Positions 35,216 through 36,143 of a stretch of DNA of 36,143 nt are shown piece after piece; position 1 is the first letter of the stretch, and every line of letters begins with the position of its first letter. A model generated the notes under the pieces. That model did no database searches. It saw nothing but the letters and a program-made list of their open reading frames with translations, and was not told the DNA's origin. This stretch comes from Haloferax mucosum ATCC BAA-1512 (GTDB lineage Archaea > Halobacteriota > Halobacteria > Halobacteriales > Haloferacaceae). The translations under genes and the position numbers were made by a program. The stretch is from NCBI RefSeq assembly GCF_000337815.1, contig NZ_AOLN01000008.1, positions 1 to 36,143 of the forward strand. The letters run 5' to 3'.

Positions 35216-35286
35216 GGGACCGTGGGGTAGTGGTATCCTCTGCCGATGGGGTCGGTAGGACCTGAGTTCGACTCTCAGCGGTCCCA
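35216..35286 (+). tRNA. tRNA-Pro (GGG)
   Basis: Acceptor stem GGGACCG/CGGTCCC pairs fully, discriminator A at 35286, no encoded CCA. The anticodon stem TGCCG/CGGTA encloses ATGGGGT, giving anticodon GGG (one G-T pair in the stem). T arm CTGAG-TTCGACT-CTCAG is intact. 71 nt without intron. The 3' end points right, towards an unrecognised gene and a CRISPR leader, so it could be an integration site. Confidence 0.95.
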
Positions 35287-35374
35287 CTTCTCACTTTCAG
35301 GAGTTAAAATTACTAGTAGTACAGGCTCTATCTGTACATTTTACTCTTGAAGGGGTTTCGGAATTAACTAGCTG

Positions 35375-35380: not shown

Positions 35381-35404
35381 TAGTCCTTCCACGGGGTGGT
35401 CTGC

Positions 35405-35887
35405 GTGAGTCTCGCGCCCTCTCGGAAGGCGGGAGACACCGTCGAATCGACGCTTCTCCAGGACCACACAGAACTGCGTCACGTCTCGGACCACGAGCAC
35501 GAACATCACGACGCGCTCACCACCGAGTTACTCACGTCGAGTCGTGAGCTTCCGTTCGTCGGCATCTGTCTCCTCGAACCCGGGACTGTCGTCGAGATCA
35601 AGAGCGCGATGGTCGTCTACGGCGAAGCGCAGCGCCGCGGACGGTTCTTACTCCGACGGAGCCAACACGACCACCTGCTCGAAGCCGGCGGTGTCTACCT
35701 CTTCGCCGTCTGTGCGCCGACCCCTTCGCGTGGTATCATCGCCGCGAAGATCGTCCCGGCGAGCCTCGTCGATGAATTTGACTTCTCGGAAATTCGTTTT
35801 GAGGATTCTCCTAAATTTCCATCGACCTCCAGGGGTTTGGGGGTTATTGGAGGTCGACGGAAACTGTTGAGTGTGGGCAGTGCATAG
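35405..35887 (+). CDS. Unrecognised haloarchaeal protein between tRNA-Pro and the CRISPR leader
   Basis: 160 residues from GTG 35405. The N-terminus is His- and Glu-rich (DHTELRHVSDHEHEHHDALT). The middle has LPFVGICLLEPGTVVEIKSA with E64-I-K66, then RRGRFLLRRSQHDHLLEAGG and VYLFAVCAPTPSRGIIAAKI. A hydrophobic strand followed by E-x-K and a later Gln/basic helix resembles PD-(D/E)XK nuclease folds, but this is only a suspicion. From about residue 125 (VDEFDFSEIRFEDSPKFPST) the code changes to AT-rich, and the last 20 codons lie in the CRISPR leader, so the C-terminus is probably truncated or replaced. It is not a recognised cas gene. Confidence 0.6.
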   Translation: MSLAPSRKAGDTVESTLLQDHTELRHVSDHEHEHHDALTTELLTSSRELPFVGICLLEPGTVVEIKSAMVVYGEAQRRGRFLLRRSQHDHLLEAGGVYLFAVCAPTPSRGIIAAKIVPASLVDEFDFSEIRFEDSPKFPSTSRGLGVIGGRRKLLSVGSA

Positions 35888-35915
35888 AACGTTGTGTGCC
35901 CCTGAATTGGGCATG
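35788..35915 (+). promoter_or_regulatory. CRISPR leader
   Basis: The 128 bases before the first repeat change in composition: AT-rich runs (TTTTGAGGATTC, CCTAAATTTCC), then a G-rich block. A perfect 10-bp inverted repeat TCGACCTCCA ... TGGAGGTCGA (35822-35831 and 35848-35857) brackets a 16-base GT/G-rich core. Placement on the left with array to the right sets transcription to the + strand. The left limit is estimated from composition and overlaps the 3' end of the preceding frame. Confidence 0.65.
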
Positions 35916-36143
35916 GTTACAGACGAACCCTAGTTGGGTTGAAGCGCTGACCCCAACGTGTGGACGTCTATCTTCGCCGAGTTACAGACGAACCCTAGTT
36001 GGGTTGAAGCGGGCGACACGAATCCCATCCATCTCGACGAGGAGTAGTTACAGACGAACCCTAGTTGGGTTGAAGCACGGATGTTTTGCACGGGGAGTGC
36101 GACCTCTTGGTGTGTTACAGACGAACCCTAGTTGGGTTGAAGC
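35916..36143 (+). CRISPR. CRISPR array, leader end: four repeats and three spacers, continuing beyond the window
   Basis: Four identical 30-nt repeats start GTTACAGACGAACC and end TTGGGTTGAAGC, at 35916-35945, 35981-36010, 36047-36076 and 36114-36143. Spacers are 35, 36 and 37 nt (35946-35980, 36011-36046, 36077-36113). The repeat is of the Haloferax type I-B kind; Cas6 cleavage would leave the 8-nt handle GTTGAAGC on crRNAs. No cas gene is in the window. Because the leader is on the left, these are the most recently acquired spacers. The array is cut exactly at the end of the fourth repeat. Confidence 0.97.

Follow-up and report, generated by a model that had tools for sequence, protein, structure and literature searches.

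The second spacer of the CRISPR array at the right end of contig C8 is a real, recent acquisition, taken from a haloarchaeal maoC/phaJ-like gene. It was probably captured from a foreign haloarchaeon, in which the gene would have been chromosomal or megaplasmid-borne. The spacer suggests that the target of this immunisation was not a virus but ordinary DNA of a cell or plasmid. The phenomenon has already been described in haloarchaea, and spacer 2 is a further instance of it.

Array architecture and the type I-B system

The analysed window is the whole of contig C8 (36,143 bases), from a 3.37-Mb genome in 20 contigs with a completeness of 97.8%. Four perfect repeats and three unique spacers terminate the contig (Table 1), the final base of which is also that of repeat 4. 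The array was thus truncated by the assembly and continues across an unassembled join. The 100 nt immediately preceding repeat 1 recur in front of five other arrays of the genome, with ungapped identities per 100 positions of 93 (C7), 89 (C11), 79 (start of C14), 70 (start of C9) and 58 (end of C14). This places the leader on the left, so that the array reads from left to right, spacer 1 is the newest and spacer 2 the second-newest. The closest known relatives of the array-leader sequences are on Haloferax plasmids.

Table 1. Features of the CRISPR array in the window
Feature	Position	Strand	Basis or remark
CRISPR leader (promoter/integration region)	35787..35915	+	similarity to leaders of five other arrays; left boundary approximate
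CRISPR repeat 1, GTTACAGACGAACCCTAGTTGGGTTGAAGC	35916..35945	+	perfect 30-nt repeat
Spacer 1 (35 nt), newest	35946..35980	+	position next to leader
CRISPR repeat 2	35981..36010	+	perfect 30-nt repeat
Spacer 2 (36 nt), MaoC/PhaJ catalytic signature GDTNPIHLDEE(Y)	36011..36046	+	frame 2 translation
CRISPR repeat 3	36047..36076	+	perfect 30-nt repeat
Spacer 3 (37 nt)	36077..36113	+	lies between repeats 3 and 4
CRISPR repeat 4	36114..36143	+	last base is the end of contig C8

Contig C14 carries a type I-B operon, Cas6-Cas8b-Cas7-Cas5-Cas3-Cas4-Cas1, flanked on either side by an array that has a leader and the same repeat. Cas6, Cas8b/Csh1, Cas7/Csh2, Cas5b, Cas3, Cas4 and Cas1b all scored above the NCBIfam cut-offs of the I-B-specific models. 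The features of a type I-B locus are therefore present, namely invariant direct repeats separated by unique spacers of comparable length, a cas operon in the genome, and an upstream leader giving the polarity. The system resembles the type I-B CRISPR-Cas of Haloferax mediterranei and H. volcanii in its repeat, leader, Cas set and pair of arrays flanking the cas operon, and we noted no structural difference in the host.

We also observed that contigs C4, C6, C7, C8, C9, C14 and C19 terminate inside arrays with the same repeat; with so many contig ends inside CRISPR arrays, the arrays were evidently broken by the assembler. A tRNA-Pro(GGG) gene lies at 35216-35287, about 630 bp upstream of the C8 array. 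Between the two, a 163-aa ORF (35396-35887) without a Pfam match extends into the leader; owing to the common leader, its final part resembles the region before the arrays of C7 and C11.

The MaoC signature and its closest homologues

Read from its second base, spacer 2 (GGGCGACACGAATCCCATCCATCTCGACGAGGAGTA) runs from the codons GGC GAC to GAG GAG and leaves a final TA, giving GDTNPIHLDEE, exactly the reading made in the initial annotation. The assignment of this peptide to the MaoC/(R)-enoyl-CoA hydratase signature was likewise upheld: G-D-x-N-P-[IL]-H-x-D is present in frame, and haloarchaeal MaoC genes match the spacer at the DNA level. With up to three mismatches allowed, 126 of 392 haloarchaeal genomes matched the degenerate DNA pattern of GDTNPIHLDEEY, the array of the host being counted among them. 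When 84,980 species were scanned with degenerate DNA encoding the exact peptide, only four gammaproteobacterial MaoC genes were returned, identical to the spacer at 27-29 of 36 positions.

The best DNA relative of spacer 2, G506:C1:686941, belongs to another haloarchaeal family and is identical at 32 of 35 positions, or 33 of 36 with the first base. The match lies in frame within a 197-aa protein containing a MaoC domain (PF01575, E=1.8e-22). The neighbouring ORFs would encode a putative PhaC with the lipase box GYCMGGT, a PhaE-like protein and an AbrB-like regulator. Among plasmids, the best blastn matches of the 36-nt spacer were haloarchaeal MaoC-type genes from Haloarcula, Halobaculum and H. 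mediterranei (29-30/36).

The closest gene of the host itself, on contig C12, also encodes a MaoC domain and is also located beside apparent pha genes. It differs from spacer 2 at eight of 36 positions (1, 13, 15, 17, 22, 31, 33 and 36); some of these are synonymous, and others replace P by R, I by L and E by A. Its 5' flank is CAG, which is non-functional. Apart from the array, the host genome contains no sequence within three mismatches of spacer 2. In the PHA cluster of H. mediterranei (PMC4823750), PhaJ1 (HFX_5217) is likewise a MaoC-domain protein beside phaC/phaE-like genes, as are the products of the C12 gene and of the best foreign homologue. Spacer 2 encodes P-I at a point where R-L or P-L occurs in the PHA-linked haloarchaeal proteins encountered, which makes the exact paralogue uncertain.

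Origin of spacer 2

Searches of the host genome, some 478 haloarchaeal species genomes, phages, plasmids and IMG/VR (the last with the exact pattern) yielded no exact protospacer of spacer 2 and hence none with a functional PAM. Nor did a near-exact one, with at most two mismatches, appear anywhere. Comparison with the replicons of possible mating partners yielded only diverged homologues among these genomes and plasmids. In consequence, the donor allele appears to be unsampled. The near-exact virus or plasmid match outside maoC that would have spoken against the initial annotation did not appear, and maoC-like nucleotide matches do occur in haloarchaea.

The lack of a known exact protospacer is also what could be said for a coincidence, in which a MaoC motif would have arisen by accident in unrelated DNA. 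We regard this as exceedingly improbable: a random 35-mer fits the exact motif pattern with a probability of ~1e-17, a 32/35 DNA match (up to three mismatches over 35 nt) is expected ~7e-7 times by chance in the DNA searched, and the reversed GDTNPIHLDEEY control pattern matched none of the 392 haloarchaeal genomes, which we count as a refutation. Acquisition from the host's own genome, with the source later lost or changed, would fit the readiness with which Haloferax takes self-derived spacers (PMC7521656) and the existence of one exact self match in this genome (secF, see below). Nevertheless, eight mismatches in 36 are more divergence than expected for a recent spacer, and a missing paralogue is unlikely at 97.8% completeness. 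Together with the CAG flank, these mismatches led us to reject the self origin, to which we give little credence. The 10-nt seed takes in position 1 (PMC8387396, H. mediterranei), so that the closest own-genome sequence lacks both an intact seed and a PAM, and spacer 2 is not autoimmune.

A donor that was a mobile element, plasmid or virus, with maoC/phaJ as cargo would make spacer 2 a case of ordinary anti-element immunity. This possibility is a good deal less probable than capture from an ordinary haloarchaeal gene, but several observations point to it: haloarchaeal plasmids of 239-505 kb harbour four of the best plasmid matches (29-30/36), one match lies near an IS110 transposase and another near phaC, and another spacer of the host targets, with a TTC PAM, an integrase that a small Haloferax lucentense plasmid also carries. 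Against it, a 1.57-Mb contig holds the closest match (33/36), which adjoins apparent PHA genes, and the degenerate GDTNPxHLD pattern is absent from 2.9 million viral contigs. A viral origin was unsupported throughout, since IMG/VR gave no match with the exact and two degenerate patterns and none of the 80 spacers from the genome's arrays matches a phage record. We favour a cellular or megaplasmid source over a virus. The initial annotation had proposed a chromosome, either self or that of a mating partner, as the source; the part concerning a haloarchaeal MaoC-type gene agrees with the 33/36 match and with the viral contigs lacking the motif, whereas the self origin does not stand. Twelve codons are too few to place the donor phylogenetically.

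For capture from a foreign haloarchaeon, we propose that mating (cell fusion), plasmid transfer or DNA uptake would bring the donor chromosome or megaplasmid into the cell, and that Cas1-Cas2-Cas4 would integrate the maoC fragment beside the leader. The spacer 2 crRNA would then direct Cascade/Cas3 at incoming DNA with that maoC allele. The host phaJ would be spared by its CAG flank, the mismatch at seed position 1 and the seven further mismatches. We consider it very unlikely that the crRNA, with its 9/10 seed match, mildly represses or primes the host phaJ, and that memory against the phaJ (polyhydroxyalkanoate) locus of partners couples CRISPR to carbon storage.

Spacer 2 is equally compatible with mating, megaplasmid transfer and DNA uptake. 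Chromosome-derived spacers and spacer acquisition during inter-species mating are documented in Haloferax (PMC7521656, PMC12814878), which bears out the initial annotation on this point and makes mating a plausible entry route. As far as the work of Turgeman-Grott et al. 2019 is described in these two sources, the mating-acquired Haloferax spacers are comparable in that the host is likewise type I-B and the spacer corresponds to a cellular gene found in other haloarchaea rather than to the own genome. The present case differs in that only diverged homologues of the spacer were found, and the maoC/phaJ target is specific to it. If the donor was a chromosome, spacer 2 adds a further natural record of CRISPR memory against ordinary haloarchaeal genes, possibly across family distance, and bears on whether CRISPR limits or shapes inter-species gene exchange.

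PAM, orientation and the other spacers

The first base of spacer 2, G, is the wobble base before GGC GAC, so that a preceding Ser would have to be TCG (flank NTC) and a preceding Thr ACG (flank NAC). The NTC group includes TTC, and the NAC group includes CAC and TAC; judged by the codons, Thr ACG would be an equal alternative to Ser TCG. TAC is the motif chiefly used for adaptation in H. volcanii (PMC7521656). The closest homologue (33/36) also begins with G, preceded by the Ser codon TCG; another homologue with a first base G has the flank CAC. Of the initial prediction of a TTC PAM, the TCG Ser codon is seen in the closest homologue, but the triplet there is GTC, not TTC, and TTC may be regarded as a possible PAM for spacer 2. 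We rejected a flipped insertion, since the reverse-strand flanks of the homologues are GCG, GCA or GCC, none of which is a known PAM.

Spacers 1 and 3 gave no plasmid match covering 80%. The reading of spacer 1 as prephenate dehydrogenase (ADPNVWTSIFAE) was unsupported, as its degenerate pattern matched nothing in 167 family genomes outside its own array. With both spacers lacking a target, acquisition as one batch from a single donor cannot be shown.

Compared with plasmid records, the 80 spacers gave one good match, spacer 5 of the array at the start of C6 (L027). It is identical at 33 of 35 positions to an integrase-like gene (G010:C6:215954-215988) with a 5' TTC PAM, which supports TTC at the 5' side, and it also matches the integrase of a 10.8-kb Haloferax lucentense plasmid. 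The genus-wide spacer search scored only the best candidate regions of each genome, so more chromosomal matches may exist.

In the array at the end of C9 (L030), the spacer CCGAGATGACGACGGCGATAGAAGGGACGAACGACCG matches a secF-like gene of its own genome (C7:43039-43075) perfectly (37/37); in seven relatives the counterpart of this gene is 86-97% identical. On its 5' side the target has ACG, a non-PAM, and the reverse strand has TTC; it would therefore seem that the spacer was acquired with a proper PAM but integrated in flipped orientation. Judged by these flanks, the flipped orientation would spare the host from autoimmunity. Moreover, the second spacers of the arrays at the ends of C14 and C19 are near-identical (TACCAGCGAGGAATTGCAGTGC...) and were apparently taken from two variants of a single target. 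A 25-nt stretch (GTCCACCGGCTCTGGCGGCGGTCGA) recurs, in shifted register, in spacer 3 of the C11 array and in the partial spacer that opens the array at the end of C9, indicating that the same target was sampled twice.
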